DNA of 52,363 nt from Porogramme epimiltina (Eukaryota; Basidiomycota; Agaricomycetes; Polyporales; Polyporaceae), in the NCBI GenBank assembly GCA_900155495.1, contig FTLJ01000148.1, positions 1 to 52,363 on the forward strand, written 5' to 3'. Position numbers and translations under genes: made by a program. A model generated the notes under the pieces. The model was not told where the DNA came from. It was given only the letters and a program-made list of their open reading frames with translations, and did not search any database. Shown here in pieces: positions 6,384 through 44,200 of the stretch (positions are counted from its first letter, which is position 1; every line of letters starts with the position of its first letter).

Positions 6384-7742
6384 TCACGTACTGTATGGTG
6401 GTAACTGATCGTTTGACCGTTGTATCCTCTCCATCCCCCCGCGCAGTGTTGCGATTTCGTGCCTCAAGAAGGAAAGCTCTGCAACAACTGATGCACTCCC
6501 ACTGACCTCCGTGCTCCTCTCTTCTTCTACATCCCCTTCCACTCCCTCTTCCTCGGTGGCCACGTCGACCTTCTGTGTCCCGTCATTGCCGCGACCACCG
6601 AAAAAGCTGACTTCCGGACTACTGCTCTCAAAACGAGTGGCGGGGACTTGTTTTGTCAATTCCCGAACCTGCGCCTCAAGGCCCTGGATGCGCTGAATAA
6701 GCACTGTAGTGCAGTCCGACTGTGACGCGGTTCGGAGCGTTGGTGAAGCCACCATCGAGAGCTCGTCAAGCTCCGAACGTCCGGGGGAAGAACCCACTGA
6801 AGAAAGCGTGAGACACGTTTCCTTGTCGTACGAGACGGCGCAGATGCACTCACCCAAGGCAGGTGCAGAGGAAAGCCGAGAGAGGCTAGGCGCGGAATAT
6901 TGATGTCTCGCGCCTTCCGTCCGCTCATCCTTTCTAACACCATCTACTCCGTCGTCTTCATGAAGAGCAAGCTTATCTACATCGCTATGCAGTGGTCTGA
7001 GAGGAGTGCGTCTTCGATGTCGGATGAGATAGGCGGTAATGGCAAGTACAGAGACGATGGCAGCGACCCCGCCACCCACGGCGCCACCTAGCCTGGTAGC
7101 AGCGACTGGAGTGCGCGAGTCCTGTGTGCTTGGAGCGACGTGCGTCGAGCTTATGGGCGTATAATTTCCCGACGAAAGCGAAGATGTGTTCGCGGAAGAA
7201 GGCTTCGAGTCTTCATCGACAGTATACTCGATGTAGTCGAAGAGAACAAGGGAATGTGTAGGCCCGCCAGACACAATCTCGAGTGTATGGGGCCCATTTG
7301 AAAGTCCTGTTTTGGAGAACACAGGGACTCTGTACTGAATCCCCACGACACCGTCGGGCTGAGTCGGGTGGAAGGTGTCTGCGGCCTCGCCGTCCAAGTA
7401 GAAGGTGAGATTTGTCGATGCTTGCAGCGCGATGACGTTGAAGACGTAGACGGCGATGCCAGAGAAGGATGCGGTAACGTTGAAGTCGGTACTTCCGGGG
7501 ATATGCATAGCAGAGTGCCAGGAGCCATTGAATACTTGGCTGATGTCGACATTGCGTGAATTAAAGGAGCACCCCGTGCAATTCTGGCCTTGTAACCAGC
7601 CCTGGGGAGCATATGTCGGTACAACACCGGTTACGCTGTCGCCGAATTCGTCGTCGATGGTGCGGTTTACAAGGGAAGCGATGGTGGGTATGATGAGGGC
7701 GAGGTGCGTTAAGAGACTTGAGAACCATCTGAATAGCAGCAT
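6384..7742 (-). CDS. NRTIDD-family type I membrane protein F1 (divergent, PPxY tail)
   Basis: 452 residues, single exon. The start at 7742 (MLLFRWFSSLLTHLALIIPT) is chosen over an ATG at 7886 because it gives a signal peptide. The ectodomain starts LVNRTIDDEFGDSVTG, with a C-x-x-C pair (NCTGC), SFSGIAVYVF, NLTFYLDGE and SLVLFDYIEYT, so it is the most diverged copy (SWHSAMH in place of TWHDSTY). A Ser/Thr stalk, a Gly-rich helix (GGAVGGGVAAIVSVLAI) and RHRRR mark a single pass. The cytoplasmic part has an acidic stretch, a coiled coil (IQGLEAQVRELTKQV) and ends LPPYST, which contains a true PPxY motif. It lacks the juxtamembrane intron of most paralogues. Its position at the left end of the array and its divergence suggest an old copy. 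Ligand unknown. Confidence 0.85.
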   Translation of the reverse strand: MLLFRWFSSLLTHLALIIPTIASLVNRTIDDEFGDSVTGVVPTYAPQGWLQGQNCTGCSFNSRNVDISQVFNGSWHSAMHIPGSTDFNVTASFSGIAVYVFNVIALQASTNLTFYLDGEAADTFHPTQPDGVVGIQYRVPVFSKTGLSNGPHTLEIVSGGPTHSLVLFDYIEYTVDEDSKPSSANTSSLSSGNYTPISSTHVAPSTQDSRTPVAATRLGGAVGGGVAAIVSVLAITAYLIRHRRRTPLRPLHSDVDKLALHEDDGVDGVRKDERTEGARHQYSAPSLSRLSSAPALGECICAVSYDKETCLTLSSVGSSPGRSELDELSMVASPTLRTASQSDCTTVLIQRIQGLEAQVRELTKQVPATRFESSSPEVSFFGGRGNDGTQKVDVATEEEGVEGDVEEERSTEVSGSASVVAELSFLRHEIATLRGGMERIQRSNDQLPPYST

Positions 7743-8371
7743 GGTGGGTAGTGAGAGAATGGGGCTCTCGAGATCTGGGGATGTCGCTTCCCGCCGGGGA
7801 TGCAGAGAGGAGGTCGAGCCATGCCGGGAAAAGCGCGGGGAGAGCCCTATTCTCTGCCATTCTATCACAGCGATGTGCATATGCATGTCTGGCTACCAAA
7901 ACAGGGGTCCCCTGGCAGAGAAGACCATCAAGAATTGCTGACAGTTCAACCAGATCGAAGGAACGTCACTATTTAGTAGAATAAGATCCATAAGCGGAAG
8001 AACTTGATAGGGAGGGAAGACTATAAATCATTTACCTGTCGTATATCGGACCGGAAGAGGCTGCCGACTCTCGGCGAGTAGGCCCCGGACCCGCTGGCCT
8101 TGTCTGGCATGCCATCTCATTAGCACAGAGGTCAGCGTTCACAGGCTTCCTGTGTGTATGTCATTGAGTCGTTCAGTAGGAGTTGGTTACCTTGAACTTT
8201 AGCTTAAAGACAGATGGGGGATGATGATGGCCTGGGTCACGGGCCCGGAAATTGAAGTCCCATAGTACGACATAGTCAAGATGCGATGTTACCATCGGAA
8301 TACATATTGACGCCTTTGCATCTCGGCTCTTTGACCCCTCTCTATTCCTCGCTCTTGTCTCCGCCCCATAT
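7743..8371. other. Intergenic between F1 and the F-box-like gene
   Basis: Shared divergent promoter space of F1 (minus) and the F-box-like gene (plus). It contains dispersed repeat copy 2 at 8082-8151. No other coding signal is seen. Confidence 0.5.
8082..8151. repeat. Dispersed repeat copy 2
   Basis: The segment beginning gccccggacccgctggcctt and ending cagcgttcacaggcttcct matches 5068-5135 in the same order and orientation, with scattered substitutions. Confidence 0.55.
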
Positions 8372-9379
8372 ATGTCTGCTCCTCATCAAGAACTCCCCAC
8401 CGAAACGGTCGAGTATATCGTCCAACTGGCGTGGACGTCTACGCAATCTCCGTCAGCTCGTCAATCCCTTTACAACTCCCTTTCCGCCGCTCACCCTCGT
8501 CTTCGGGTGATCATCCTCCATATCGCGACCAAGTTTGCCATCTTCGACTTCGTTGATTTCCCTCCACCCGATATACGGCTCTACTGTGACCACATCATTC
8601 ACCAAATGGCTGCCGACTCCGGTTATAGCAAGGAATCCGCAGAGCTGAAGCGTCTTCTCTTCCACAACTCCCATGTACGCCTCCAAGGTTACTCCTTCGT
8701 CGAAGTCGGCCCCGCTCCCCTCCACATGCTCCACAAGCGCGAAATAGAGCCTTTCCTCAATGTCCTTGTCGACATAATCGGCGACTGCAAGTCCTTCACC
8801 GTCGCCACTGTCCCTAGCATTCCCCAACTCTACCTTTTCGAACGCGAGTGTCTCTTCAGGCATGTCCTTCCGCAGCTTCCTTCCCTCGAAAGCGTTTACC
8901 TGGATTGCCTCTGGATGTTGCCGGACTCCAAGCGGAGCCTGCCACTACGACCATTATCCACCGTCTGGTTCCTACGTATGCGGCAATACCCACCCTGCTC
9001 GTGCGGCACGTCCCGCGATAGTGCCTCCCCGCACTTGTGCATGTCCGGCACCCTCCACGACCTATTTCCGTGCCTTCGCCATCTCCATCTCGATACCCCG
9101 GTCTCCCTCTCGGATGTGTGTGTCTCTCACACGCTCGACACGCTCACCCTTCAAGCCCCGCCCCCGGATCGCGAAGACCCGCCGAAGGTGCTCACGCAAT
9201 ACCAGATACCCCAAGCACTCTCGCACGGCTTCATGGGCTGGCCGCGGGAGGGAGAGGGGACAGCTCGAAGGAGGATCGTTGTGCACGCGGGGATGGAGGA
9301 TCCGGATGGATGGGAGGATGTGCGGAGGGCCTGTGAGGAATACGGGATCGAGCTGGTGAAGGTTCTCAGCTACCTATAG
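8372..9379 (+). CDS. F-box-like protein, basidiomycete type
   Basis: 335 residues, intronless. The N-terminus LPTETVEYIVQLAW is a weak F-box-like helix typical of the expanded agaricomycete F-box/LRR-like families, whose members recruit substrates to SCF ubiquitin ligases. The rest is a mix of leucine-rich strands (LPQLPSLESVYLDCLWML, LFPCLRHLHLD, HTLDTLTLQAP) and a C-terminal part that resembles the usual end of these proteins (DPDGWEDVRRACEEYGIEL). No signal peptide or membrane helix. The start is the first ATG of the frame and lies directly before the F-box-like segment. It is divergent to F1. The F-box match is partial, so 'F-box-like' is an inference from overall pattern; no substrate can be proposed. 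Confidence 0.65.
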   Translation: MSAPHQELPTETVEYIVQLAWTSTQSPSARQSLYNSLSAAHPRLRVIILHIATKFAIFDFVDFPPPDIRLYCDHIIHQMAADSGYSKESAELKRLLFHNSHVRLQGYSFVEVGPAPLHMLHKREIEPFLNVLVDIIGDCKSFTVATVPSIPQLYLFERECLFRHVLPQLPSLESVYLDCLWMLPDSKRSLPLRPLSTVWFLRMRQYPPCSCGTSRDSASPHLCMSGTLHDLFPCLRHLHLDTPVSLSDVCVSHTLDTLTLQAPPPDREDPPKVLTQYQIPQALSHGFMGWPREGEGTARRRIVVHAGMEDPDGWEDVRRACEEYGIELVKVLSYL

Positions 9380-9965
9380 CGTCGGTGAGCTCTTCGCTTT
9401 TCGTTTCGTGAGCCCTTGGCTCAAGTCTCCACCCGTCCACCCCACGCCCTACGACGTGTTCCGCACGTAGCTGCCTAGGCTTAATACCCCTCCAAACCCC
9501 TTTACGTTCCGCCATCCCAGGGCGAGTGCTGGTCAGGCACATGTGCTGCCTGTACGTCCCCCCTGTTCGCTGTAGCGCGATGCGCACGAACAACCGAGAC
9601 TTGGACCACTGTGAGAGCTCTTCTATCCCCTTTATACTCGTTGAACTAACAATGGTCATGATCTAGTCCCCTGCGGGGGCGACCGCTGGCCACTGCCTTC
9701 GTAGCTGGCCGAGGGACGATTCGACGACGCGAGGTTGTTCAATACCCATCTTCGACGATCTCACTCAATGCACGCAGACGCATTCGTCGTTGGTCTCTAC
9801 TTCAAGGGAGGCTTTGAGGGTACTACAGGCGTCGGTTGTGTACCGGGGCTCGTCGGTGCCCTGAGGGAAACGTAGGGGAGGTTGCCGTAGTTAACTATCT
9901 TCGTTATGCTATATAGTATTGTAGAAGCGTCATACCATACACAATGTCCAATACCGCCTTCGTGT
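9380..9965. other. Intergenic, 3' ends of two convergent genes
   Basis: Lies between the F-box-like stop and the stop of the DUF6533 gene. Short frames on both strands have no recognisable content. Confidence 0.5.
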
Positions 9966-12561: not shown

Positions 12562-13967
12562 TTATTGTTCGGAGTACGTCGGCAATGGCTCATCCGCGTT
12601 CACTGCGCACCAAACGTCATGCTGTGCGAGCGCGATTCTCAGGCTCGCAAGCTCAGTACGCATCTGTTCAACCTCCGCAGCTGACAACTCCACTATGCTG
12701 GTAGCCTGGGCTCCTGTATCTGCTCTTGGAGGACACGAGTTCTGAGCGGAGGGAACGCTTACAGCGTGATCGCTTGCGAGCGGATGCTGCCACGGTTCCA
12801 CCCAGTTGTATTCCTGGGATACGGTGACTGGGTGTCTGATTCCTCCAGACCTCTGGGTCTCAGGTGGTGTGGGATGTGTGGTTGAAGAAGACGGGTGATG
12901 AGTTCTCCTCGGAGCGCTGGGGGCGCGCAGCTGTGCCTCAAGAGCGTTAACGCGGTTTGCAAGAAGGGTGATGTCCTCGATACATGTGGCGGAATAAGCA
13001 GTAAAGCTCTGCCCGTTACCCTGTAGCGTTTGAAGCATGGCTGTGGACGCTTTCCATGAGTATTAAACCAGTAAATGCAAGGTTAAGACTCACAAGTTGC
13101 ATGATAATGGCTGGAATCAACGTGCGGGTATATAAATGGGGTCCTAACAGTCGACGCACGCGAAGCGAGGCGCCGCCAGAGGAAAACGCGGAATAGGATT
13201 GCAACCACAATTACGAATGTGGTCCCAGCAACAGCGCCGCCGATGATTGAGGGCGATGAAGATTTATTATTTGAAGATGTTGCTGTGGTCATTGTGGAGA
13301 TCGCCGAGGGGATTGAGGTAATCGAGAGCAGGGTGGTGTTGGAGGAAGATGAAATAGGGGGAGAAGTCGCGGTGTCTTCCACGGCTGTGTATACAGCGTA
13401 GTCGAAGAGCACGAGCGTGTTGCTAGACCCGCCCGTGTGTATCTCGAATACATGAGGCACCGAGGGAAGCCTTGTACGGCCGAATGCTGGTACATTGTAG
13501 AGGATAGCATTGGTGGTGTTGTCCGGCCAGTATGTGAAATTTCCCGCGAGCTCGTTGTCGATGCGGAATGTGAGGTTTGTGAATGTAGTCCTGCCTGGCA
13601 CCCCGTTCACGAGAAGGACGAAGGCATACACCGCGACCCCGGTGAAATTCATGGAGATGACTCGTTCTGGGTCCCCGACATCCCAGGTGGAGTCGTGCCA
13701 GGTTCCGTTGAATATTTGATTAATGTGGGCGGTAGCAGGGTTAATGATACAGCCGCCACAGATGTTCCCTTGGTTCCACACGCCGACAGTCGGGAGGTAG
13801 GACGGGGGCACCTTGGTGATTTCGTCGCCGTAGAAGTCGTCGATGGTGCGGTTTACAAGAACGCTCATTTCTGATACCGCCCAGGAGAAGAATGGAGAGG
13901 TGGGCCGTCTGTTTGTCCTGCTGGGAGACGGTAGGTAGGGGGTAGAGATAGGGGATCTCGTCTTCAT
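12562..13967 (-). CDS. NRTIDD-family membrane protein F2 (FYGDE subgroup)
   Basis: 450 residues from exons 13094-13967 and 12562-13040; the intron (gtgagt...ccacag) joins HYHAT to SMLQTLQGNG in frame. The ectodomain has VNRTIDDFYGDEITK, CGGC, FNGTWHDSTWDVGDPERVIS, FTGVAVYAFVLLVN, TTFTNLTFRIDNEL and TLVLFDYAVYT. After a Ser/Thr stalk come a Gly-containing helix (IIGGAVAGTTFVIVVAILF), a WRR stop-transfer, a coiled coil (ANRVNALEAQLRA), a second one (VEQMRTELASLRIALA) and the tail LPTYSEQ. The N-terminus (MKTRSPISTPYLPSPS...) has no hydrophobic signal core, unlike F9; an acceptor-like cccagcag lies at the same place as in F8 and F12, so a first exon may be missing. Gene and both flanks are duplicated as F8 and F12. 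Confidence 0.8.
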
Positions 13968-14354: not shown

Positions 14355-15246
14355 CTAGCTATACGTGTTCTCTGTGGGCACGTTTCTGTGATATTTGGAA
14401 TAGGGCGAAGAGGAATGGTAATCAGAAACACTGATTATAGGGAAACGATGTAGATCACCGAGAGTCCTACCAGTGATCGAACCCAGTTCCGGGGATGGAC
14501 GAGTTGAATAAGATGGACTGCTTTGAGATAGAAGAAGCCGCGGGTGTGATGATTGGAGAGTAAGGCAGTACCCCAGATGTTGTAGGGGGGAATGCCCCTG
14601 GGATGGGGGACCAGAGAGACAGCGACGGCATGTTCGAAGGGGAAAATATGGTAGCACTTGGGGCTGGGAGCCTTGGGTCCTGTGCTGTGGGGGTGGTGGG
14701 TTTGGGAATGACGTGGAGGGGACCGTGTCATCCTCTTTGATAGTGTATACCGCGTAGTAGAAAAGTAGGAGCGAGTCGCTGGGCCCGCCCGCACGTATTC
14801 CGGAATGGTGGAGTCTGTTGGGGAGGTCATGGAGTCCGAAGATGGACGCGTTGTAACGCATGTCTGTCGATTTGTCCGGCTCGTGAATGAATATTTCAAC
14901 AATAAGTTTGTCAAGGTAGAACGTAGGGTGTGCCATTGTGGTGGCATGTAAGTCTGGTTAGCGAGGGAGACGAAGGCATACACCGCGGTCCCGGTGAAAT
15001 TTATAGAGATATATCGCTCAGGGCCCAGGTCTTGTTAAATGCTCGGCTGATGTCAACCACAGTTTCTTTGACACAGAATCCGCCGTAAGCGTCACCCTAT
15101 GTCCATCCTTGGCTGTAAGATGGTTCCACATGCCCCGAATTATCCCCGTGCTTGTCTTCTACGGTGCAATTGACGAGGTCAGATACTACGGAGCCGGCGT
15201 GAAGATGGAGAACAGTAAGAATAGCAGAGTCTACGGTCTGCTAGTA
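14355..15246 (-). pseudogene. NRTIDD-family pseudogene F3 (relative of F5)
   Basis: Aligns along most of its length with F5 (18600-19877), including the signal-peptide region, but is broken in several ways. The start ATG is replaced by non-start sequence. The ectodomain opening reads LVNCTVEDKHGDNSG. A TAG follows YSQGWT, and a deletion after FNKTWALSDIS leads to TAA and a frame change. The second half reads YLDKLIVEIFIHEPDKST and LLLFYYAVYTIKEDD in two alternating frames. The stalk and membrane region are scrambled by further shifts (SPSYSTRPSPELGSITG is the remnant before the helix). No product is expected. Its 5' flank (15247-16020) still matches that of F5, so the whole unit was duplicated before decay. 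Confidence 0.85.
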
Positions 15247-16222
15247 TCGCGCTAGGACACAGCTAGCAAGGTATCGATTGCAGACTAGTGTGTGAGTGAG
15301 ACATACCTTGAAGCGATGACTGGGGATATTGTTTTCCCTTACACAATAACTTTGATCCTGCTTGTGCCCTAAACCGATTTCCTCGAAAAAAGTGAGACTG
15401 ACGGAATCATGATTAGTGCAATTGGTGAAATCGTCGCACGGCCAAAACCAACTCACCTCGCTAAGAAGCCACCCGAAATCCGCTGTGAACGCAATCGAGC
15501 CACATGCTTTTTACCATGATACCGGATCCGATTGGGGAATCTCGTCTTCCTAAACGAGATATTTGATAAAGGTGAACAACCATCAGGCGGAGTACGACCA
15601 CAACAGAGTCATACGTCCCCTCCTATGTGAAACGTATACTGAGCCAAGCTTACTGTTGAGCTCATCTTGGAGCATTCATAGTCAGATTGAGAACATCATC
15701 CGAGATATGCCATCAACGCGTAGTCTATACTCTGCGTGATAGAGCGCGATCATTTTGACGAGTAGCGGAGACAAGCTGTCGGTAGGGCATAATGGGCGCC
15801 GGTCACAGCTGCCCTAGAGCACATGGGCAAGGCCAATCTCGGAAGGACTATAACGTGATAAGGCATTTGTGACTTACATATGGAGTCCAGTTTACGAGGG
15901 TAGATGTTTCAGGGTAAATGAGAAGCAAGAAAAGAGTAGGAATAAGGTAAATAAAGCAACGATGTACATCCGCAATCTCGACTTAAGACAGTCGCTCCTG
16001 GCCGTCCGACAAAGGTCCACTGCAGTCGGCGGCCGTGGGATGATCGATGATGCATAGATGATGACACATGCCTGGGAGGTGCGATCATTAGACGCTGCGC
16101 CCCCCTTTTGGATGCCGGGCTGCCATACCTGTGTTAGCAATAAATATTATGCAGTTGTAAGTACTATTCCTGCGTGCCATACGATTACAACATGACCGTC
16201 TTCATCTTCCTCCCCCATGTCC
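15247..16222. other. 5' flank of F3 and 3' flank of F4; duplicated with 19878-20600
   Basis: Blocks such as tgcagacta, gagtgagacataccttga, ctaaa-gagat and acgacagtc-like words appear in the same order upstream of F5. No gene is supported. Confidence 0.55.
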
Positions 16223-17797
16223 TTATCCCGAGTACGCCGGTAATGTCTCCTCTCCGCCACGCTGCACAATCGCAAACGCCGCCCTTAGGTTAGCAAGTTC
16301 AGCGCGCAACTCATCAATCGCAGCAGAGCTGACATGGCTCTCCAGTGAGCCCACGTGCGAAATTGCGTTCGTCGCGCTCGAAGCGGCCTCGGAGTACTCC
16401 GAGGACGACGAAGGCGGTGAGCAGTGTCCTACTATGAAGTCATCCTGTATCTCCGTAAACCCCTCATCCGAGAGCTGCACGATAGGTCTGTTCCTGTTCA
16501 TCGCGCGGTTCGCAGACGTCTCCATGATAGAGCGCGAAAGTTCGTCATGTTTCTCAAAGGCTACAATAGCGCGCAGTTGTGCCTCCAGCACTTCTACGTG
16601 TTCCGTGAGGAGGGTTGTTCCTTCAGATCGGGCTACCGACAGCGCAGGGAGGTCAGTGAGGACGTTCAGTGCGTGTCTGGATGGAGGAGAACGAGACCGA
16701 GGCACTCGGTAGAGCGCGATAAGGGCGGTCAGCACAAGCGGTCTCAGGTATAAGGATGGCTGCCACTCGCATGTAGCACTCCGATTATGGCGAGGGGGGC
16801 CGGGGAGAAACGACTTGAATGGGGTTACACTGGGCTGGGGCGGTGATGTTTGGCGGCGGCGACAATGGATAATGAGAGCCACGCCGGCAGTTGCACTTGC
16901 TACGAGTGCAAGCCCTCCCAGGACTCCGCCCACGACAGGCCCGATCTCGTGTGATGCATGCGTTGGAGGTTCATGGATGAGCGAACCACTGTGCTCCATA
17001 GAATGAGCATCTGTCGAACTAGTAGTGAATGTGTTTGCGAATGTAACATGAGAGGTTTCGACTTGACTTGAAATGGGGGGCGTAGTGAACGAATTGCTAT
17101 GTGTCAAGGGGCATGTGGGTAGAGAAGTCCCCCATGTGACGGGTGCAGAAATGGGAGAAAGAGGTGAAGTGAAGATTAAGCTTGAAGTCGTTGAGAAGGC
17201 AGTTGTGGTGTTTGTTACGGGGCTTTTCCCCATCTCTTCGGAAGTGTGGACCACGTAATCAAATAGTAGGAGGGAGTCTGTCTCTCCGCTCATGCGTATC
17301 TCAAACTGGTGGACTTTGTTGGGGAGGCCTGTACGACTGAACATCAAAACATTGTATAGGATGTTTGTGGTGTTGTCTGGCCAATGTGTAAATATCCCCG
17401 AATACTCGCCGTCTATGTGAAAGGTCACGTTGGTGAAGGTCGTCGTCCAGATGATCTGGTTAGCAAGGATAGTGAAGGCGTACACGGCGGTGCCGGTGAA
17501 GGACATTGAAATGACATGCTCGAGGTATCCGACGTGGTATGTCGAGTCTTTCCAAGTCTGATCGTACGCTTCCTTGACATCCACAATGGTTCTGTTGACG
17601 TGACAGCCCATGCATGTGCTTCCTTGGTTCCATACTGATCCATTTGAGTAGGAAGGTACGATGCCAGTAATCTCGTCGCCGTAGGTGTCGTCGATTGTGC
17701 GATTAATGATGCGTGACGCCGCAAAGGTGATATGTTGTGCACTGAAGAACGTGAGCGCGATTGGTAATAGCATGAGCCTCCGACTAATTGTGTTCAT
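16223..17797 (-). CDS. NRTIDD-family membrane protein F4, long form with exonised intron
   Basis: 524 residues in a single open frame, the longest member. Signal peptide (LMLLPIALTFFSAQHITFA), then IINRTIDDTYGDEITG, CMGC, TWKDSTYHVGYLEHVIS, FTGTAVYAFTILANQ, NVTFHIDGEYSG and SLLLFDYVVHT. A long Ser/Thr stalk (about residues 190-285) leads to the helix VVGGVLGGLALVASATAGV and CRRR. Where F6 has an intron beginning gtgagctacagcc, F4 has gcgagtggcagcc: the donor GT is lost and the stretch stays open in frame. It would add a second hydrophobic segment (SLYLRPLVLTALIALY). Coiled coil (LLTEHVEVLEAQLRAI), a second one (IDELRAELANLRAAFA) and tail LPAYSG follow. Splicing with a GC donor is possible but the obvious acceptor then gives a stop. 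Confidence 0.85.
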   Translation of the reverse strand: MNTISRRLMLLPIALTFFSAQHITFAASRIINRTIDDTYGDEITGIVPSYSNGSVWNQGSTCMGCHVNRTIVDVKEAYDQTWKDSTYHVGYLEHVISMSFTGTAVYAFTILANQIIWTTTFTNVTFHIDGEYSGIFTHWPDNTTNILYNVLMFSRTGLPNKVHQFEIRMSGETDSLLLFDYVVHTSEEMGKSPVTNTTTAFSTTSSLIFTSPLSPISAPVTWGTSLPTCPLTHSNSFTTPPISSQVETSHVTFANTFTTSSTDAHSMEHSGSLIHEPPTHASHEIGPVVGGVLGGLALVASATAGVALIIHCRRRQTSPPQPSVTPFKSFLPGPPRHNRSATCEWQPSLYLRPLVLTALIALYRVPRSRSPPSRHALNVLTDLPALSVARSEGTTLLTEHVEVLEAQLRAIVAFEKHDELSRSIMETSANRAMNRNRPIVQLSDEGFTEIQDDFIVGHCSPPSSSSEYSEAASSATNAISHVGSLESHVSSAAIDELRAELANLRAAFAIVQRGGEETLPAYSG

Positions 17798-18599: not shown

Positions 18600-19877
18600 T
18601 CACATCACACTCCACGTGATGGAAGTCTCCGCTTGGCTGCAGCCCGACGGAGAGAGAGAAGAAGAGGATGAGTTGCTGTGACGGACAGTTGATGGAGCGT
18701 GGCGGGCTCTGGCCGTGGCTGTAGGGGCACGCATATCCCAGACCGAGCTCGGAGAGAACGGTGGTTCGGAGGGGGGCGGCTCGGTATGCTCGGAGAGCGG
18801 TGTTAGTGGGCCCCGACATTTCTCGGACCGAACATTGAAAAATAGGCGCGTGCTCAGTCGAGGTTTCAGGGCATCAACAGATCGGACTGTGAAGGAGGGC
18901 GGCGGGATATTAATAGAGAATGAGTCACCATAAACATTTGACGCACTGGTTTTATCTTCGGAGGATAGGGGTGGATGGAGGAGAGGTGAATTGAGAGGGG
19001 CCATAGGAGATCCAGGCCCTGGTGAGGCGAGGTGCCATCTACGCACCACATGGAACAAGACCGCAGCGATAATTCCCAAGGCAAACCCGCCAACAGTGCC
19101 ACCAATGATCGGACCCAGTTGCGGGGATGGACTAGTTGAGTACGGAGATGGGTCGCTTGGAAAACGACATGCTGCGGGTGTAATGGTTGAAGAGGGAGGT
19201 AGTACCCAGGAGGTGGTAGGGAGTAATGGGAACCAGATAGACGATGATGGCGTGTTCGAGGAAACTGTGGTGGCCCTCGAGGCTGGAAACTCTGGGGTCT
19301 GCGTCGTAAATGGTGGTGGGGTGAAAAGGGTCGTGTCATCCTCTTCGACAGTGTATACCGCGTAGTCGAAAAGGAGGAGCGAGGCGCTGGGCCCTCCCAT
19401 ACGTATTTCGAAATGGTGGGGTATGTTGCGTAGGCCGTCCATGCTAAAAATGGAGGCGTTGTAGCGAAAGTCCGTTGAGTTGTCCGGCTCGTGAAGGAAG
19501 CCTCCGACGAAAGCCCCGTCGAGGTAGAATGTAAGGTTGGTCATTGTAGTCGTAGCCCAAATTTGGTTAGCGAGGAGAGCGAAGACATACACCGCGGTTC
19601 CGGTGAAGTCCAGGGAGATATTTCGTTCGGGCCCTCCGACGTAGTAAGTGGAGTCGTGCCATGTCTTGTCAAATGCTCGGCTTATATCAACGATAGTGTC
19701 GTTGACGTTGCATCTGTCGCAGGTGTTGCCCTGGGTCCATCCTGGGCTGTAAGATGGCATATTCCCAATTTCATCCCCATACCCGTCGTCTACGGTGCGA
19801 TTGACGTGGACAGATGCTACAGGGCGGACGTAGAGATGAAGGAGAGCGGTAAGGAAGAACAGAATAACGGAGGCCAT
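18600..19877 (-). CDS. NRTIDD-family membrane protein F5, variant tail
   Basis: 425 residues, single exon. Signal peptide MASVILFFLTALLHLYVRPVAS, then VNRTVDDGYGDEIGN, CDRC (central pair altered from CxGC), FDKTWHDSTYYVGGPERNIS, FTGTAVYVFALLANQ, MTNLTFYLDGAFVG and SLLLFDYAVYT. A Ser/Thr/Pro stalk precedes the helix IIGGTVGGFALGIIAAVLF and a short VRRWH stop. The cytoplasmic part differs from other copies: it lacks the coiled coil and LPxYS tail and instead has a Ser/Pro-rich stretch (KPRLSTRLF, PSTVRHSNSSSSSLSPS). The same alternative tail is found out of frame after F7. F3 is its decayed duplicate. The start is supported by the immediate signal peptide. Confidence 0.85.
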   Translation of the reverse strand: MASVILFFLTALLHLYVRPVASVHVNRTVDDGYGDEIGNMPSYSPGWTQGNTCDRCNVNDTIVDISRAFDKTWHDSTYYVGGPERNISLDFTGTAVYVFALLANQIWATTTMTNLTFYLDGAFVGGFLHEPDNSTDFRYNASIFSMDGLRNIPHHFEIRMGGPSASLLLFDYAVYTVEEDDTTLFTPPPFTTQTPEFPASRATTVSSNTPSSSIWFPLLPTTSWVLPPSSTITPAACRFPSDPSPYSTSPSPQLGPIIGGTVGGFALGIIAAVLFHVVRRWHLASPGPGSPMAPLNSPLLHPPLSSEDKTSASNVYGDSFSINIPPPSFTVRSVDALKPRLSTRLFFNVRSEKCRGPLTPLSEHTEPPPSEPPFSPSSVWDMRAPTATARARHAPSTVRHSNSSSSSLSPSGCSQAETSITWSVM

Positions 19878-29830: not shown

Positions 29831-29891
29831 TCAAATAACTAGACGCCATCTGTCTCCCCTCCTAGCCACGACTCAGTACAAGGAGACGTGT
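29206..29891. other. 5' flank of F8 and 3' flank of F9
   Basis: Duplicated with 38069-38830; no gene supported. Confidence 0.5.
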
Positions 29892-31113: not shown

Positions 31114-31515
31114 TATTGTTGTCCAGCAATGGATTAGCGTATAGAGATGTTGTTGGTGAGTCGGGTGTGGGCCAAGATACAGCTGAAGCCTAAGCTGACG
31201 TCGAGGACTGGGTGACCGTTTTCTCGTACATCTCACTCGCCCTTATACACCACGTATGCGACTAGCCGCCACGCTGTATTGATGTCCGCCCGTGGCGTGC
31301 ACGGTTCGATAGATGGCAGAAGAGTGAGTGCTGTGTCTCCTGCGGGGACTTGAGGTCCTAAAGACGATCTACGAATACGTGAACAATACTAGTCAGTCAT
31401 CGCCAAAATGAATCGAAGAATATCTAAACACGAAGCGGGTTTTCATACCTTGAGGAGGGTTCGTGTACCTAACGCCTGCTGATTCAACGCGGCGAGAGAG
31501 TACTGGAAAACGGAC
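31114..31515. other. 5' flank of F9, duplicated at 39073-39449
   Basis: Near-identical to the upstream DNA of F13, for example gacgtcgaggactgggtgac and tacaccacgtatgcgactag. The match ends at cggac (31511-31515), where the 1.5-kb extra segment begins. Confidence 0.75.
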
Positions 31516-34013
<2,498 letters not shown>

Positions 34014-35356
34014 TTACACGTGGCACAGGCCTGCCATGTAGTCACGCCGCGCCTGAAACGCCGCACGCAATAACGCAACCTCCGCGCGTGTTTCCGCCAG
34101 CTCCGATCGCGAATAACTCTCGCCAGAAGCGCATGAGCTCTCGCCAATCACTGTCTGCTCACCAGAACACTGAGAAGCCGGCGCGTGCGAGGGTGGACCG
34201 GGGGGAGGCGTGTGTCTAGTTGTCCAGTCGTCGGCCCTGGGGAGACTGGAAGACGAGGGACTATTCGGGAGCGTTGGGCCTGTATCAAAGGAAGGTCTCG
34301 CCCTGAAGAGAGTGAGATGAAGCGCCGGAGGTGATAGAGAAGGCGAAGATCTCTTCTGGGTCGTAAGCGCGAGCAGTTGGGCTTCGAGAATCGCAACGTG
34401 CACCTCCAGCCGGGCTGTGTTCTCGGAGGGTGTAGAATACGAGCCAATTACGCTCAGTGTGCTCGAAGCTAAACGCCGATGCTTCGCTATTGGAAACGGG
34501 ATTCAGGACTTGAGTGTTCGGGAGAGGAGCGGAACTCACGTGTAGGGCCAAGGGAGAGGGGCGCATCGCGGAGAGAGGTCTTGCATAAAGCCAAATTGCT
34601 GTCCGGCATTGGGGCCGTGAGACGCCGACGAAGGAACATATGAAACGATATCCCAGCAGCCATGACCAGAGCAAGTCCACCGAAAACGCTGGCGATAATC
34701 AGACCGGTGGTCAGGGACTTTGACGTCATGGGACCCCCTGTTGAACTAAAGGACGACGAAGAGGCTTGTGCTTGCGTGGTGGGGGTAGTGGGCGTTTGCG
34801 TAAGGTTCTCGCGCTCCACCGTATAGACTACGTAGTCGAATAGTAGAAGCGAGTGGCCTGAGCCACCCATGCGTATTTCGAATTCGTGCGATGTGTAAGA
34901 CAGGCCTGTGTGGGCGAAGACTGGGACATTGTAGAGGATATCTGTGGAGCTGTCTGGAATGTGGTTGAACTGTCCCGCCAACGCCCCGTCGATGTGGAAC
35001 GTGAGATTCGTGAATGTTGACGTCTCGGGGACCTGGTTGGCGAGTAGGACGAAAGCATATACGGCGGAGCCATTAAACGACATGGAGATTACTCGCTCAG
35101 GGCCCCCTGGGGCGTACGTAGAGTCGTGCCATGTCATATCAAACGCACGGTTGACGTCTGCGTTGGTGTTGTTGACATGGCATCCGACACATGCGTTTCC
35201 TTGGGCCCATCCCCCCTCCGGAATGTAAGAAGGCCGCACGAATGTAACGTCATCGCCGTTTTCATCGTCGATGGTATGATTGAGGAGGATGGAGACCCCG
35301 TGGCATATCCGGCAGAAAATAAAGGCAATCAGGAGGCTCAGGGAAGGAATCGTCAT
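34014..35356 (-). CDS. NRTIDD-family membrane protein F10 (ENGDD subgroup)
   Basis: 429 residues from exons 34540-35356 and 34014-34486; intron gtgagttcc...ccaatag joins LSLGPT to PKHRRLASST in frame. Signal peptide MTIPSLSLLIAFIFCRICHG, then ILLNHTIDDENGDDVTF, CVGC, FDMTWHDSTYAPGGPERVIS, FNGSAVYAFVLLANQ, TNLTFHIDGALAGQF and SLLLFDYVVYT. The stalk is short; helix IIASVFGGLALVMAAGISF is followed by LRRRL. The cytoplasmic part has a coiled coil (RLEVHVAILEAQLLALTTQ) and SELAETRAEVALLRAAFQ, and ends ARRDYMAGLCHV, so the usual LPxYS motif is missing. F14 is its close duplicate with the same tail, so the loss predates the duplication. Confidence 0.85.
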
Positions 35357-36568: not shown

Positions 36569-36599
36569 ATCAGGACGTCCAGTTATCCCTACGTCGTCG

Positions 36600-38830
36600 T
36601 GCACGGCACTAGAACTCCACTAACAAGTTCAAAGCTGAAATCTACTACGCGCATTCCCCTTGCAAAACAGATGACATATTTCAACCACAAATATACCCGA
36701 GTGAGGTAAGTACGACAAAAATTTATCCTTGTCATCCCATAAGTTATTGTTCTGAGTACGTCGGCAATGGCTCATCCGCGTTGACTGCGCGCTGGTCAGC
36801 GTCACGGCACGCGAGAGCGATTCTCAGGCTCGCAAGCTCAGTGCGCATCCGTTCAACCTCCATGGCTGATGGCTCCTCCATGCTTGTAGCCGTGGCCTCT
36901 GTATCCGCTCTTGGAGCACATGAATCACGAGCGGAGGGAACGCTTGCGGCGTGATCGCCTGCGGGCGGCCGGGTCATCAGATGCTGCCACGGTACCACCC
37001 ACTGGTCGTATTCCTGGGATACGGTGACTGGGTGTCTGATTATTCCCAACCTCGGTGTCTCGGGGGGCGTGCGATGTGAGGTTGACGAAGACGGGCGATG
37101 AGGTTTCCTTGGAGCAGTGAGGGCGCGCAGCTGCGCCTCGAGGGTGTTGATGTGGCCATCAAGAAGGGTGGTGTCTTCGATAGATGTGACGGGGAGAGCA
37201 GCAAGGTCATGGTATGAGTTCTGACCATTACCCGGCAGCGATTGCAGCATAGCTGTAGACGCTTTTCATGAGCATGAAATCAGTCGATGCAAGGTGAAGA
37301 CTCACGAGCTGCATGATAAGGGCTGGGGTCAACGTGAGGGTATATAGCTAGGGTATTAACAGTCGATCTTCGCGAAGCAAGGCGCCGCCAGAGGAAAATG
37401 CGGAATAGAATTACGGCCACGATTACGAATGTGGTTCCACCAACAGCACCGCCGATGATCGTGGGCAATTTATTCTTTGAAGATGTCATTGTGGGGGTCT
37501 CCGAGGGGGCTGGGTTAGCCGAGAGGGTAGTGGTACTGGTGGTGGAGGAAGTTGAGGTAGAAATTTGGTTGTTTTCCACGGCTGTGTAGACAGCATAGTC
37601 GAAGAGCACGAGCGCGTCGCTCGACCCGCTGACGTGTATCTCGAAGACATGGGGGGCACTGGGAAGCTCCGTACGACCGAATGCCGGCACATTGTAGAGG
37701 ATATTCGTGGTGCTATCCGCCGAGTGCGTGAAACTCCCCGCGAGCTCGCCGTCGATACGGAACGTGAGGTTTGTGAACGTCGTCCTGTCTTCGTGTCCCC
37801 CGTTCACGAGGAGGACGAAGGCGTACACAGCGATGCCGGTGAAATTCATGGAGATGACTCGTTCTGGGTCGCCGACATGCCAGGTGGAGTCGTGCCAAGT
37901 TCCGTTGAATATTTGTTTAATGTCTGCGGTGGCAGGGTCAATGATACAGCCGTCACAGGTGTTCCCTTGGTTCCACGCGTCGAAAGTTGGGAGGTAGGAC
38001 GGGGGTGTTTTGGTGACCTCGTCTCCATAAAAGTCGTCGATGGTGCGGTTTACTTGAAGAGCGTTCATTTCCGATAGCGCCCGTGAGAGGAGTGGAGAGG
38101 TGGGCCGTCCTGTCTGTCCTACTGGGCGAGCGCAGGTGGGGTGGAGGTGGTGGCCCTTGTATTCATATACGCTCTACTATGTGAAATGCGTGCTGACGGA
38201 TCTAGACACACATCAACGACGGCGCATTGGGAAGGAAACTTCGATATCGGCCCCAACGTGTGGTTAGTGAGTACGAGTGCCGTTTGCGAGGGGATACGCT
38301 CGAGCCGCGAACTCTACGCTGGCATTCCCGAGACTGCGTATGTTAGACAAATGGAAGTAATTAGTCGTTGATGGGGGTGACGCCTCGTGGCTAACATTAG
38401 ATGAAATGGCACACACGCAGTGACAGTGTCCGCGTGGCAGGCTTCATCCACTGGCTTCCGACGTAGTCTTTACCTTCAGAGTTTGATTCTGTCGCTGACA
38501 TGTACACTTGCTAAATGCAGTGGAGCTGACGCCAGAATTGGCTTTTATTGACGGCTTGCCATGCGTGTTGTTCGGGGCACACGCAGATGCGGTTAATATA
38601 GGCTTCTGTGCTATATAGAGCTGGGAGGGAGGAATGGTAAATGCAATGTCATAAACGTTGATTACAGGTCAATAATGTAGAATCACCGAGGTCCTAGAGC
38701 GTGTTCGGATGCACCAAGAGAAGGAAGTCCTGTCTGAAAACATAACGTACCCCCCTGTGCAAGCGCAAATCGTTGAGACTTTCATGATTTTAGGTCGTCC
38801 AATGGTGTCGCCTATATTTCCAGGGACATA
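36600..38830. repeat. Duplicated unit containing F12 (copies at 12.4-14.4 and 27.6-29.8 kb)
   Basis: 3' flank, gene and 5' flank match those of F8 and, less extensively, F2. It is the first element of the second F8-F9-F10-like triplet. Confidence 0.7.
36744..38068 (-). CDS. NRTIDD-family membrane protein F12 (FYGDE subgroup), short N-terminus
   Basis: 423 residues from exons 37306-38068 and 36744-37252; intron gtgagtc...gtctacag joins PYHAA to PMLQSLPGNG in frame. The only available in-frame ATG gives MNALQVNRTIDDFYGDEVTK, so there is no signal peptide. The upstream ATG that matches the F8 start (ATGAATACAAG near 38165) is in another frame and soon meets TAG. Ectodomain: CDGC, FNGTWHDSTWHVGDPERVIS, FTGIAVYAFVLLVNGG, TNLTFRIDGELAG and LVLFDYAVYT. 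Helix IIGGAVGGTTFVIVAVILF and WRR follow, then DGHINTLEAQLRAL, VERMRTELASLRIAL and LPTYSEQ. Either secretion uses an unseen first exon or this copy is losing surface delivery. Confidence 0.75.
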
Positions 38831-38910
38831 TATCAGGTGACTAGTATCAATAAGTAATATGAACTTAACAGCCACATGTACACTCGGAGGCATGTTATGT
38901 AACACGAACA
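38069..38910. other. 5' flank of F12
   Basis: Matches 29206-29830 in order. After the shared cagggaca at about 38827 the sequence diverges until the truncated F13. No gene supported. Confidence 0.5.
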
Positions 38911-39072
38911 CACAGGTGTTCCCTTGGTTCCACCCGTTGCAAATTGGGAGGTAGGATGGTGGCACTTTGGTGACTTCGTCGCCGTAGAAGTCGTCGATAG
39001 TGCGGTTGATCAAGATAGACGCCACTAGGTGTATGTTGGATAGAAAAGTGTGATAAAAAGGAAGATGATCAT
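38911..39072 (-). pseudogene. Truncated NRTIDD-family copy F13 (5' end of an F9 duplicate)
   Basis: From ATG at 39072 it reads MIIFLFITLFYPTYT then stop: a small deletion relative to the F9 signal peptide shifts the frame. In another frame it continues ILINRTIDDFYGDEVTKVPP...WNQGNTC and then breaks off near 38911, just before the second cysteine. The remaining ectodomain, membrane helix and tail are absent. The 5' flank is nearly identical to that of F9, so this is the F9-equivalent of the second triplet, reduced to a stub. Confidence 0.85.
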
Positions 39073-40444
39073 GGCTGTTGTCATGGCTGTTCTCCGGAAA
39101 TGGAGTAGTGTATCGAGATGTTGGTGTGTCGGGTGTGGGCCAAGATACGGCTGAAGCCTAAGCTGACGTCGAGGACTGGGTGACCGTTTTCTCATACATC
39201 TTACTCGCCCTTATACACCACGTATGCGACTAGCCGCCATGCTGTCATATGTCTGCGCATGGCGTGCACAGTTCGATAGGGGACTCGAGATCCTGACGAC
39301 AATCTACGAATACGTGAACAATACTAGTCAGTCATCGCCAGATGGGTAGAAGAATATATAAACACGAAGAGGGTTGTCATACCTTTAGGAGGGTTCGTGT
39401 ACCTAACGCCCGCTGATTCAACGCGGCGAGAGGGTACTGGAAAACGGACGCTCATGATGAACTATAACATAAACGCAAGCCTAGTGACGGCATACCGTGA
39501 AAGTGGCGACTCTGGCAGTACCACAGCCCTTCTCCACTTCTTACCGTGCCTGTAGACCACAAACACAAAAGTTGATGATGTGGGGAGAGTGGCTCGTGAT
39601 AGAACATTCAACTGAGGCGAACTCGCTGTTGAGTTCGCCCTGCCGACCAGAGTCGGGGTCAGGGCGGGCAATACATTCAGTCCCGGTCTCCTGGTAAAAC
39701 AAGCGTACTGTCTCAATTCCAGCCTTTCACTTCGCTTCTAGCCCACATAAGCCCCTATCCTTCCATCTCGCCGCCGGGTTTTCATCCAAAGGCGCCGCCG
39801 TATCTCCTCTGCTAGAAGTAAGGGACTAGTCTACAGCAGCAACACGCCTATCATCCAACCGTCAACGTACTATTGAGACATCATAAGCTTACCTTGAGTA
39901 ACCAAAATGCTCTGGGCCTCCATGCCTGGTTCTCTGCCAAGCCATTTCGTCGTGAGGCATAGTGACTGCTTAGGCAGGAAAACTGCTAGTAGCAGGGGAC
40001 AAGCACGGGTAGGCACTTCTTCAATGTCGAGCTATGACTATCGCGTTAGCATAGTGTTCGATGATACGGCACAATGCAGGCAGGTGAGAGTCGCGGTCAT
40101 AACGAGAGGTACGGGCTACAAGGGAAGAAGTGACATCATTCCGAGCTCGTGTTGGCAAAGGGCGCTTATATCACACCTGCTGCGGACACAGCGAGACAGG
40201 GACCTTCGGCTTATACATATTTCTTCCATACCAATGTACGCTAGGGGTGATTGTGCAGTAGTGTTCTGAAGAACTGGTCCAGCCTTGACTCACATAGTGC
40301 GTACGAACGACATAGATTCGGAAACGTAAAGCGACTCGTTCAGACTTCAAGTTGCGCGTACAACAGCAGAACCTAAATACAGTATCGACGTAGTAAGAAC
40401 CTCCCTTCCTGCACCACCTCGATCCCCTCTGCCGCACATCACAA
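39073..40444. other. 5' flank of F13 and 3' flank of F14, duplicated with 31114-31515 and 33032-34013
   Basis: Contains the uninterrupted (empty) site at 39446-39449 corresponding to the 1.5-kb insertion. No gene supported. Confidence 0.65.
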
Positions 40445-41817
40445 TTACACGTGGCACAGTCCTGCTCTATAGTCACGGCGCGCCTGAAACGCCGCGCGCA
40501 ATAACGCAACCTCCGCGCGCGTTTCCGCCAGCTCCGATCGCGAATAACTCTCGCCAGAAGCGCATGAGCTCTCGCCAACCATTGTCTCCTCACCAGAACA
40601 CTGAGACGCCGGCGCATGCGAGGGTGGAGCGGGGGGAGGCGTGTGTCTAGTTGTCCAGTCACCAGCCCTGGGGAGACTGGCAGACGAGGGACGATTCGTG
40701 AGCGTTGGGCCTGGATCAAAGGAAGGCCTCGTCCTGAAGACAGTGGGAAGAAGCGCGGGAAGTGACAGAGAAGATCTCTTCTGGGTCGTAAGCGCGAGCA
40801 GTTGGGCTTCGAGAGTCGCAACGTGCGCCTCCAGTCTGGTTGTGTTCTCGGAGGGTGTAGGGCACGAGTCAATTATGCTAAGTGGGCTCGAAGCTAGACA
40901 ATGCATCGCTATTGAAAACGGGATTCAGGACTTGAGTATTCGCGAGAGAAGCGAAACTCACGTGTAGGTCCGAAGGAAAGGGGCTTATCGCGGGGAGAGG
41001 CCTCGCATAAACCTAGATTGCGATCCGGCATTGGGGCCGCGAGACGCCGACGAAGGAGCATATGGAACGATATCCCAACAGCGATGACCAGAGCAAGTCC
41101 ACCGAAGACGTCGGCGATAATCAGTCCGGCGTTTGGGGGCTGGTGATGAGGAGTTATTGTTGTCATGAGGCTAGGCTTTGATGTCGTGGGATGTCCTATT
41201 GAACTAAAGCTGAAGGACGACGAAGAGGCTTGTGCTTGCGTGGGGGTTGTGGACGTTTGCGTGAGGTTCTCGCGCTCCACCGTATAGACTACGTAGTCGA
41301 ATAGTAGAAGCGAGTGGCCTGAGCCACCCATGCGTATGTCGAATTCGTGCAATGTGTGGGGCAAGCCTGTGTGGGCAAAGACTGGGACATTGTAGAGGAT
41401 TTTTGATGAGCTGTCTGGAATGTGGTTGAACTGTCCCGCCAACGCTCCGTCGATGTGGAACGTGAGATTCGTGAATGTTGTCGTCCGGGGGATCTGGTTG
41501 GCGAGTAGGACGAAAGCATATACGGCGGAGCCATTGAACGACATGGAGATTACCCGCTCAGGGTCCCCCGGGGCGTACGTAGAGTCGTGCCATGTCGTAT
41601 CGAACGCACGATTGACGTCTGCGATGTCACTATTAACATGGCATCCGACACATGTGCTTCCTTGGGTCCATCCCCCGTCCGGAGCGTAAGACGGCCGCAC
41701 GAATGTAACGTCATCGCCGTTTTCATCGTCGATGGTATGATTGAAGAGGACGGAGGCCCCTGGGCATACCCTGCAGAGAAGAAAGGCAATCAGGATGCTC
41801 AGGGAAGGAATCGTCAT
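40445..41817 (-). CDS. NRTIDD-family membrane protein F14 (ENGDD subgroup)
   Basis: 439 residues from exons 40962-41817 and 40445-40908; intron gtgagtttc...caatag joins LSFGPT to PMHCLASSPL in frame. Signal peptide MTIPSLSILIAFLLCRVCPG, then VLFNHTIDDENGDDVTF, CVGC, FDTTWHDSTYAPGDPERVIS, FNGSAVYAFVLLANQ, TNLTFHIDGALAGQF and SLLLFDYVVYT. The stalk is slightly longer than in F10 (TTITPHHQPP insertion). Helix LIIADVFGGLALVIAVGISF precedes LRRRL; an Asp sits inside the helix start, where F10 has Ser. The tail has RLEAHVATLEAQLLALTTQ and ends DYRAGLCHV without LPxYS. It is the duplicate of F10, with both flanks. Confidence 0.85.
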
Positions 41818-42836
41818 GAGTACTAGTCTAGAGGCACCGCGATGCTATGATAGAGAGAATCGGCAGTGAGTGGGATGCAAACTACGGCTGGACCCTAAGC
41901 TTACGTAGGAGATAGTAGAATATTGCATTGTTGGTCGCCAGTTTTCCTGTCCGTAACGTGTCTCATAATAGCTTCTAGGAGTACGTATGTTATACAGTGT
42001 TGGCAATGTTCATGACGTCCACAACATACCAGGCAAGTCCGCGCCTCGGCCGGCGCGTCGCGATGAAGAGCGTATGGCAAGCTGGCTCCCTAGCTGGGCC
42101 ATCTTGGCGTGTAATCTATGCATCAGGATGGGGCGTAAGCTTCCTGTAGCGAAATGAACATACCATCTCAGTTCCAAACCCTAGCCTCCGGTCCTCGACG
42201 CATCTCCAAGCAGCTCTACGAAGTCCTGCAGACGTTTTCGTCTCCGAAGATGGAAGCAAGTTGAGATATGAAGACAAATAGAATCAGTACTGCTGTTTGT
42301 TAAGCGCAAAAGCTCTGCATCTGTATGCGTACCAGCGCACCCAAAGATAATCACGGTCAACCATCCTCAACTTCGGCATCCTGCACTGGCATACGGCATG
42401 CTTTGGGTTGGGGGCGGCGTGATTCGATCTGTTTCCAAGAGCACAGAGCTTCAGAGGCTGCGAATGAGAAAGATGTGAACTAGGACTGTGAGTGCAGAGG
42501 GTGGAATCCGGACAGAAGAGAGGACTCCGGGGGTCGAGACTGCGAGAGTCTGAAGAGGCGCCCATGGCGCGACGTCACCGAGGTCGCCTCGGGCGCCTCC
42601 ACTGGAGTAAATCAAGACAGACATGCGGTCCTCCGGTCAAGCCATCTGCATCAAGCTCAAGCATCTAATGACAGGTGAGCAGGAGATGTTGGCCAGTATT
42701 CATGAGTGTATAGGATAGTGTATTGCACGAGTGTGACTCTACGTGGCGGTGTGTGAAACACCTCTCACAGCGACTAAAACGACAAGCTACTAGTATATAT
42801 GTAAATCTAGTGGTATGCCCCCCCTTGGTGCCATCC
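41818..42836. other. 5' flank of F14 and 3' flank of F15
   Basis: Bases 41900-42370 match 35420-35900. Beyond 42380 the sequence is single-copy in the window. No gene supported. Confidence 0.55.
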
Positions 42837-44200
42837 TCATCGCGAGTACATCGGTAACGTCTCTCTTCGCTGCACCTGCTCGAGCTCCGCACGCAGCACA
42901 GAAAGCTCTTCCCGCACCGCCTCAAGATCGAGCGTGCTCCCATGCTCAGTCCAGCCGACTGACGACGCCATCTCGCCGCGGTCTACCACCGTCGACCTGC
43001 TGCCATATGGAGGGATGAGCACTGCCGTCGACCCGTCGTCAGAAGGAACGGGAGCAACTGAGCTCGCATGGAGCGAGGGGTCGTAGAACGTGGTTGGCGC
43101 GAGGGATCCGGCGCGGGCTGTGAGGGCGTAGAACTGGGCCTCGAGCGTTTCGATCTGTTGCCCGAGGAGCGTTGTTCCTTGTGACATCGCGACCGACCTG
43201 GTCGACCGCGTGGGGAAGTGGCTGCTTGGGGCGCGGCGGAAGCGCGGGTCTGCACGCGGGAGTGGCGCTGCTGCTGTGGTGACGGCGTCAGATGTCTATT
43301 CTGGAGAAGCATGGGAAGACGTGATAGGGGCGTACCGGTGCGGTTCGGGGGATGGGCGGCCGGAGGAGGGCGTTGAGGCAGAAAAGGGGTAACAGTTGCG
43401 CCGGACTTGCTCTGTGCGAGGTAGCGTCGGCGAATCACAAAAAAGGAAATGGCGGAGATAAGGGCGAGTGCCACCCCGCCCAACACCCCACCGAGGATGG
43501 GTCCTAACGTTGGGGTGTGGGTTACAGGGAACGACGTGGCTGTATTTGTTAAAGAAGAACTCGCCCCGAGCGAGGATGTTGATCTCAGCGAGGTGTTCCC
43601 GGTGGTGGAAGTGCGAGAAGATGCTGGGGTTGAAGTAGTCGTGGTTGTTGAGTCGCCCTCGTCGGCGGTGTAGATGACATAGTCGAAGAGCAAAAGTGAG
43701 TCGTTCGACCCACCCGCGTGTATCTCGAATTGGTGCTGCGTATTGGACAAGCCTGAATGGCTGAACACGGAGACATTGTACAGAATATCCGTGGTACTAT
43801 CCGGTTGGTGCATGAACTGAGGGCCAACGGGCGCACCATCGATGACAAATGAGAGGTTGGTGAGTGTGGTCGTCCAAATGATTTGGTTGGCGAGCAGGAA
43901 GAAGGCGTATACCGCAGTTCCGGTGAAGGACATCGAAATAACGCGTTCGGGCTGCCCAGGGTGATACGTCGCATCGTGCCAGGTCTTGTCGAATGCTCGG
44001 CTGACATTAGCAATAGTGCTGTTGACGTGACAGCCCGTGCAGGTGTCGCCCTGACTCCATCCTTCGGCTGGGGAGTAGGCAGGGGGGGTATGTGTGATCT
44101 CGTCCCCGTTCTTATCATCGATAGTGCGGTTGACGAGGATGGCGGCTCCTGGTGATATGTTCAGAACGAGAAGGCAGATGAAGAAAGCAAGAGTGACCAT
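42837..44200 (-). CDS. NRTIDD-family membrane protein F15
   Basis: 425 residues from exons 43336-44200 and 42837-43249; intron gtacgcccc...gcgtgcag joins NRT to DPRFRRAPSS in frame, although the unspliced frame also stays open to 42983. Splicing is preferred because only it yields the family coiled coil (SVAMSQGTTLLGQQIETLEA), a second helix (VREELSVLRAELEQV) and the tail LPMYSR. Signal peptide MVTLAFFICLLVLNISPGAA, then LVNRTIDDKNGDEITH, CTGC, FDKTWHDATYHPGQPERVIS, FTGTAVYAFFLLANQ, TNLSFVIDGAPVG and SLLLFDYVIYT. Stalk Ser/Thr-rich; helix ILGGVLGGVALALISAISFF and IRRRYL. It is the right-hand end of the array. Confidence 0.85.

Follow-up and report, generated by a model that had tools for sequence, protein, structure and literature searches.

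The stretch of DNA analysed here, called the window, is the whole of contig FTLJ01000148.1 of Porogramme epimiltina (52,363 nucleotides; assembly GCA_900155495.1; C121 among the 926 contigs of this 41.9-Mb genome). It carries a tandem array of genes for receptor-like proteins, in which an extracellular-type domain (ectodomain) is followed by a Ser/Thr-rich stalk, a Gly-rich hydrophobic helix, Arg residues and coil-like segments. Two features of this family are new here, both having been missed by the first-pass annotation, which was made by a model from the letters and their open reading frames (ORFs). One is a tail that is separated by an intron and ends in [LP]PxY (the PY motif), and the other is an ectodomain cassette found on genes with unrelated tails. 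The proteins may be surface receptors that are turned over through the ubiquitin ligase Rsp5.

A tandem array on one strand

Copies were located by a six-frame search with a profile built from the 12 ectodomains and were named by their position in kb (Table 1). All 12 intact ectodomains (span 7215-44140) lie on the minus strand, as had been claimed. The presence of a broken copy (four fragments at 14739-15177, with frame changes and a stop) and of a truncated copy (38903-39016, covering the first 37 profile positions) agrees with the earlier description of a tandem family marked by duplication and decay. About 15 loci had been proposed; the intact, broken and truncated copies were recovered, whereas a fifteenth, a relic, was not found by tblastn with either ectodomains or tails. 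With the 12 ectodomains as queries (E ≤ 1, window) there were three weak matches elsewhere (E 0.046-0.59), none family-like, and when the queries were the post-ectodomain parts or tail exons of all 12 copies (E ≤ 0.05), none of 49 matches fell outside known genes. A stretch upstream of g19 (20216-20596) is similar, in two short pieces at 68-78%, to the sequence 3' of g17 (15627-15996), which may record an earlier duplication.

Table 1. Members of the array and their parts, in window coordinates (introns are predictions)
Feature	Position	Strand	Description
g7	6384-7742	-	Divergent copy in one ORF: signal peptide, ectodomain (7215-7676), stalk, membrane helix and coils; ends LPPYST
g13	12562-13868	-	Ectodomain 13380-13862 from Met, signal peptide not found; 53-nt intron scores best (13041-13093); LPTYSEQ at end of tail exon
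Broken copy	14355-15228	-	g19-like (70% nt), several frames
g17	16223-17797	-	Signal peptide, then ectodomain (17237-17713), stalk, membrane helix and two coil segments; ends LPAYSG
g19	18600-19877	-	Signal peptide; ectodomain at 19344-19811; neither coil nor PY motif in tail
g24	23069-24534	-	Signal peptide; ectodomain at 23989-24468; 68-nt intron scores best (23536-23603); coil tail, LPEYS 16 residues before end
g26	25734-26768	-	Signal peptide, ectodomain 26226-26702; tail without coil or PY motif
g28	27788-29109	-	Ectodomain 28624-29103 from Met, signal peptide not found; 53-nt intron scores best (28291-28343); LPEYSEQ at end of tail exon
g30	30109-31113	-	Signal peptide, ectodomain 30577-31056; stalk and helix differ from g28; short tail without coil or PY motif
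g35	34014-35356	-	Signal peptide, ectodomain 34814-35290; intron 53 nt, 34487-34539 (71 and 125 nt score equally); both coils, no PY motif
g37	36744-38068	-	Ectodomain 37577-38056 from Met, signal peptide not found; 53-nt intron scores best (37253-37305); LPTYSEQ at end of tail exon
Truncated copy	38669-39157	-	5' part g30-like, ectodomain 38903-39016 only; lacks about 1 kb that the g30 unit has
g41	40445-41817	-	Sister of g35, with signal peptide; ectodomain at 41275-41751; 53-nt intron (40909-40961), equalled in score by one of 68 nt; coils, no PY motif
g44	42837-44200	-	Signal peptide, ectodomain 43661-44140; intron near 43274-43335 (1 of 37 possible); coil tail exon, ends LPMYSR
Two-gene unit A (g30 then g28)	27686-31518	-	Collinear with unit B, 36634-39452 (truncated copy then g37)

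The ectodomain

Alignment of the 12 ectodomains gave 38 invariant columns, including the C34-x-x-C37 pair and LFDY. Several of the motifs listed in the first-pass annotation were confirmed: the close Cys pair, LFDY and N[RH]T[IV]DDxxGD are present in 12/12, and the stalk, Gly-rich helix, Arg residues and coil-like segments were seen after the ectodomain. Two motifs had been overstated as common to all copies, TWHDSTY being exact in only five of the 12 and F[TN]GxAVYxF occurring in 11.

AlphaFold2 modelled the ectodomain of g26 (26217-26711) as a galactose-binding-like beta-sandwich with high confidence (predicted local distance difference test score 97), so the earlier guess at this fold holds, as a prediction. 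The nearest fold neighbours were CBM35 and CBM6, for example C. thermocellum CBM35 (2w1w). Modules of these two families bind sugar, with calcium in many members. At the level of sequence, none of the 12 ectodomains matched a CBM at E ≤ 10 within HMMER's filters. Profile searches gave no PDB match at E ≤ 10, and single-protein search returned only ribosomal eL28 (E 0.2 and 0.8). Pfam scans of seven window copies, 12 ectodomains and 10 relatives yielded no informative match at the cut-off. PF03229 matched g24 (E 1.3e-4, 23 bits, cut-off 21) over stalk and helix only and was judged uninformative, as was PF21314 (TM_ErbB1), which matched the helix of four of the 10 relatives (P0068, P0023, P0013 and P0099) below the cut-off. 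The PF21314 match is precomputed in the database record for P0068, a trap for automatic naming.

The type I topology proposed earlier is predicted for most copies. By a simple hydrophobicity rule a signal-peptide-like start was called in 9/12 window copies and in 39 of the 48 genome members examined. In g13, g28 and g37 the ectodomain begins at a Met and no signal peptide was found in frame, so the topology of these three is doubtful. Inspected by eye, their upstream sequences have indels differing by 4-5 nt and show no splice acceptor common to the three near the Met. The same three genes (starts 13868, 29109 and 38068) keep N-glycosylation sequons and a PY tail despite the lack of a detected signal peptide.

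A tail ending in [LP]PxY

In six copies the ORF ends by reading through an intron after the Arg cluster, and the tail continues on a second exon. This exon is joined by a best-scoring GT-AG intron, predicted at about one position, in g13, g28 and g37 (53 nt), in g24 (68 nt) and, with alternatives of equal score, in g35 and g41 (53 nt). The intron of g44 is ambiguous (37 candidates), and the ORF of g17 possibly reads through an intron, none being clear. The tails have two coil-like segments, and LPxYS stands at or near the C-terminal end in 7/12 copies (g7, g13, g17, g24, g28, g37 and g44). Coils are present and the motif is absent in g35 and g41; g19, g26 and g30 have neither, and the coil or PY tails gave no match to their tail regions.

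Beyond the window, the motif was counted in the 74 database relatives with a tail of at least 50 amino acids. A C-terminal [LP]PxY was present in 41/74 (mean 1.23 in shuffled tails), with ends such as PPRY, PPSY and PPPY, and was found elsewhere in the tail in 2/74. In the genome, 55 rows, representing 54 distinct ectodomain-bearing genes (one listed twice, some incomplete), were scored. A motif with an adjoining coil was found in 32 of the 54 members, compared with 1/55 on the antisense strand and a Markov mean of 0.33 (maximum 2). Only these 32 are counted, because a motif near the stop arises often by chance. Being strict, the coil rule overlooks g28, for which a different match came first in the output, and also C611_10589 and L026_1900, in which the tail is plain by eye. 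In relatives P0033, P0038, P0043, P0046 and P0063 and P0039, P0048, P0051 and P0052 the motif looks decayed in place (EALPRR-type, AAPSYVS-type) and the coil is kept.

An old family with a probable lineage-specific expansion

Three single-protein searches of the whole genome gave 57, 64 and 67 matches, counts that take in relics and split domains; many of these matches lie in further clusters, on contigs C611, C367, C239, C410 and C780. At least 101 database relatives were returned; part of the list was scored among the 7996 candidates sharing most words, making this a partial sample. Those with organism names include Trametes, Cubamyces, Ganoderma, Pleurotus and Mycena, and their labels are hypothetical, uncharacterized or unnamed. 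Every organism-named relative returned is, we take it, an agaricomycete, presumably of the orders Polyporales, Agaricales, Boletales and Auriculariales. Two Ganoderma sinense entries bear the UniRef name 'Transporter', and some relatives are near-identical to an individual window copy. The absence of an assigned function, as stated in the first-pass annotation, fits the names of the relatives returned, none of which gives one. No description of the family was found among the open-access papers listed, judged by titles and the starts of abstracts, and of 27 viral pattern matches none was confirmed as a relative. Many galactose-binding-like proteins, which may or may not include this family, are reported as upregulated in Armillaria (PMC7827401).

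In a FastTree phylogeny of 143 ectodomains, a clade of 20 (support 0.965) contains 11 of the 12 window copies, one C611 copy and eight relatives, and holds none of the returned named-species sequences. The array therefore appears, as far as the partial sample tells, to be mostly a lineage-specific expansion of an old family. The exception, g7, lies outside the clade and groups with copies on C123 and C173.

Putative surface receptors that may recruit Rsp5

We give roughly an even chance to the reading that these proteins are surface receptors with a glycan-binding-like head, turned over through Rsp5. The proteins would sit at the cell surface, with a predicted CBM-like outer domain on a Ser/Thr stalk and a single predicted membrane helix, and with the tail predicted to lie on the other side of the membrane. 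LPxY and PPxY are described as ligands of Rsp5 WW domains in yeast (PMC1557994). The genome has a gene for a Rsp5-type ligase on contig C881, encoding three WW domains followed by HECT exons (a C2-like region upstream was recognized by eye). The [LP]PxY at the tail end of seven window copies, a ligand motif for Rsp5/NEDD4 WW domains, would recruit this type of ligase, and recruitment would likely pull the receptor and any bound ligand, perhaps a glycan, into the cell by endocytosis. The coil-like segments may drive dimers. The five motif-lacking copies would have similar binding, yet would remain at the surface or give a different signal.

Several observations weigh against this reading. The motif is absent from 5/12 intact window copies and from 33/74 relatives, some of which have decayed ends (EALPRR-type, AAPSYVS-type); in others, automatic ORF calls may have missed the last exon. 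Counted near the stop in any frame and with no coil rule, the motif gives a weak contrast (47/55 genome rows, compared with 12/55 on the antisense strand and, in Markov controls, 14.4 on average and 23 at most). WW proteins other than Rsp5 also bind [LP]PxY. Three of the seven window copies with the motif (g13, g28 and g37) have no detected signal peptide. As for the head, the model had 27 fold matches at E ≤ 0.001, with template modelling scores (by query length) of only about 0.41-0.55; Eph receptor ligand domains are also among its matches, and a predicted CBM35-like fold is no proof of sugar binding.

Alternatively, the proteins may be Rsp5 adaptors, whose outer or lumenal domain grips other glycoproteins and whose PY tail delivers Rsp5 to them, a role that has been proposed for Comm and PRRG4. 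Short transmembrane PY proteins that re-route a partner are described for this pair (PMC5578492), and motif and coil are conserved in the tail of the present family. The long Ser/Thr stalk and large extracellular-type domain would better suit the cell surface, however, and no partner is known; we consider this role doubtful.

One ectodomain on different tails

The neighbouring genes g30 and g28 share 90.5% nucleotide identity over 473 bp, with limits within six bases of the ectodomain ends. Outside the ectodomain, nothing in matching places aligns at E ≤ 1e-4; the sole other match is the stretch that serves physically as both 3' flank of g30 and 5' flank of g28. By contrast, g28/g37, g28/g13 and g35/g41 can be aligned over 2.0-2.7 kb, although g28, g37 and g13 are at a similar ectodomain divergence to g30/g28. 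The motif is present in g28 and absent from g30. The units that contain these genes, A and B, are collinear (74.3% over 2267 columns and 82.1% over 580), unit B being without about 1 kb of the g30-like gene. A second case was found on contig C367, where two copies (8262-8747 and 2243-2728 of locus L015) are 94% identical until 73 nt past the ectodomain and then unrelated. One of these seems to have a coil with a decayed motif and the other LPDY without a coil.

The best tree joins g30 with g28; in the approximately unbiased (AU) test the tree with g30 outside the PY-tailed trio stays acceptable (P = 0.246). Recent gene conversion between g30 and g28 was considered and the claim dropped for this reason; because the g30-outside tree is kept, our claim is limited to different histories for the ectodomain and the flanks of these two genes.

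These genes might be fungal paired receptors, in which near-identical ectodomains are kept on tails with and without the Rsp5 motif, so that one ligand is cleared or tolerated. The likeness of g30 and g28 in the ectodomain only, the collinear units and the C367 pair are consistent with this, and gene conversion is reported to keep the ectodomains of primate CD300A and CD300C alike (PMC12447643). However, there is one clear case in the window, ongoing conversion is unproven by the AU test, the signal peptide of g28 was not found, and in neither C367 copy did the automatic rule detect a PY tail next to a coil. Pairing of this kind is an unlikely explanation. A broader form, in which mushroom-forming fungi move one ectodomain cassette between tails that recruit Rsp5 and tails that do not, the ligand being cleared by ubiquitin-driven endocytosis or left acting, also seems improbable to us.

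Wall sensing and non-self recognition as less likely roles

A sugar-binding head on a Ser/Thr spring could read wall stress, as in wall integrity sensors of the Wsc/Mid2 type. The order of parts is that described for Wsc1, namely a head, a glycosylated Ser/Thr stretch, one membrane helix and a tail (PMC9024836). However, a WSC domain was found neither in seven window copies (E ≤ 1) nor in 10 relatives (E ≤ 0.01), and the family runs to dozens of copies, not just a few. At its conserved end the tail has a Rsp5-type ligand, which is not known to be a Rom2 site, and a wall sensor is quite unlikely.

Constraint was measured on the ectodomain alignment. The ratio of non-synonymous to synonymous substitution rates (dN/dS, omega) was 0.16 under site model M0, and M1a placed 76% of sites at 0.11 and 24% at 1. 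No positively selected sites were found, M2a giving no gain over M1a and M8 none over M8a; in a small power check, simulated omega = 4 sites were found in two of three runs and in none of three null runs. Of the 66 window pairs, 41 had a finite dS, and their pairwise dN/dS ranged from 0.11 to 0.53. Judged from these codon comparisons, the ectodomain appears to be held and not diversified, and diversifying selection on it was rejected. Within the trio g13, g28 and g37, the ectodomain is the slowest part in the three pairwise comparisons (0.16-0.26), with higher values for stalk plus helix (0.51-0.78) and for the tail (0.47-0.68); in g35/g41, the youngest pair, dN/dS is about 0.5 throughout. The description of the family as rapidly duplicating did not stand: dS exceeds 0.3 or is saturated in 65/66 pairs, leaving g35/g41 (dS 0.14) as the only recent pair among mostly old copies. 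Allorecognition or non-self receptors under diversifying birth-and-death evolution, a form of the recognition or adhesion role under birth-and-death evolution that the first-pass annotation proposed, would fit the tandem arrays, the broken and truncated copies and the lineage-specific clade, but an ectodomain with an omega of about 0.16 and no positive class (M1a = M2a, M8a = M8) makes them very unlikely.

Neighbouring genes

To the right of the array are genes for a glutathione S-transferase (48416-49264) and a HET-domain protein (49640-50605), both on the plus strand. An ORF at 1531-2325 (+) matches DUF7729 (E 5e-9). Between g7 and g13, an ORF of 335 amino acids (8372-9379, +) has an F-box-like start by eye and no Pfam match at E ≤ 0.1.

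Comparison with known systems

To our knowledge, few surface receptors for sugars, hosts or neighbours have been characterised in agaricomycetes. A lectin-like head combined with a Rsp5-ligand tail offers a concrete and cheap test of the way in which surface ligands may be sensed and internalized by these fungi, and genes with a shared ectodomain and different tails make receptor pairing testable outside animals. If pairing were true, it would be a fungal counterpart of the activating and inhibitory pairs of vertebrates, with ubiquitin replacing signalling through the immunoreceptor tyrosine-based inhibitory motif.

The family shares its predicted fold with CBM35/CBM6 (2w1w) at 8% identity, and has a membrane anchor in place of an enzyme. 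Like Comm, PRRG4 and other PY membrane adaptors, it combines a membrane helix with a tail that carries PY motifs. It differs from Comm and PRRG4 in its lectin-like ectodomain, Ser/Thr stalk, coiled coils and motif at the very C-terminus, and homology was neither sought nor is claimed. The Wsc wall sensors likewise have a head, a Ser/Thr stalk, a single membrane helix and a tail, whereas the present proteins form a large tandem family with a PY tail and, in the members scanned, no WSC domain. The pattern of g30 and g28 resembles that of animal paired receptors: like mammalian CD300A and CD300C they have near-identical ectodomains on different tails, although the fold is unrelated and opposing signals are known for neither g30 nor g28.

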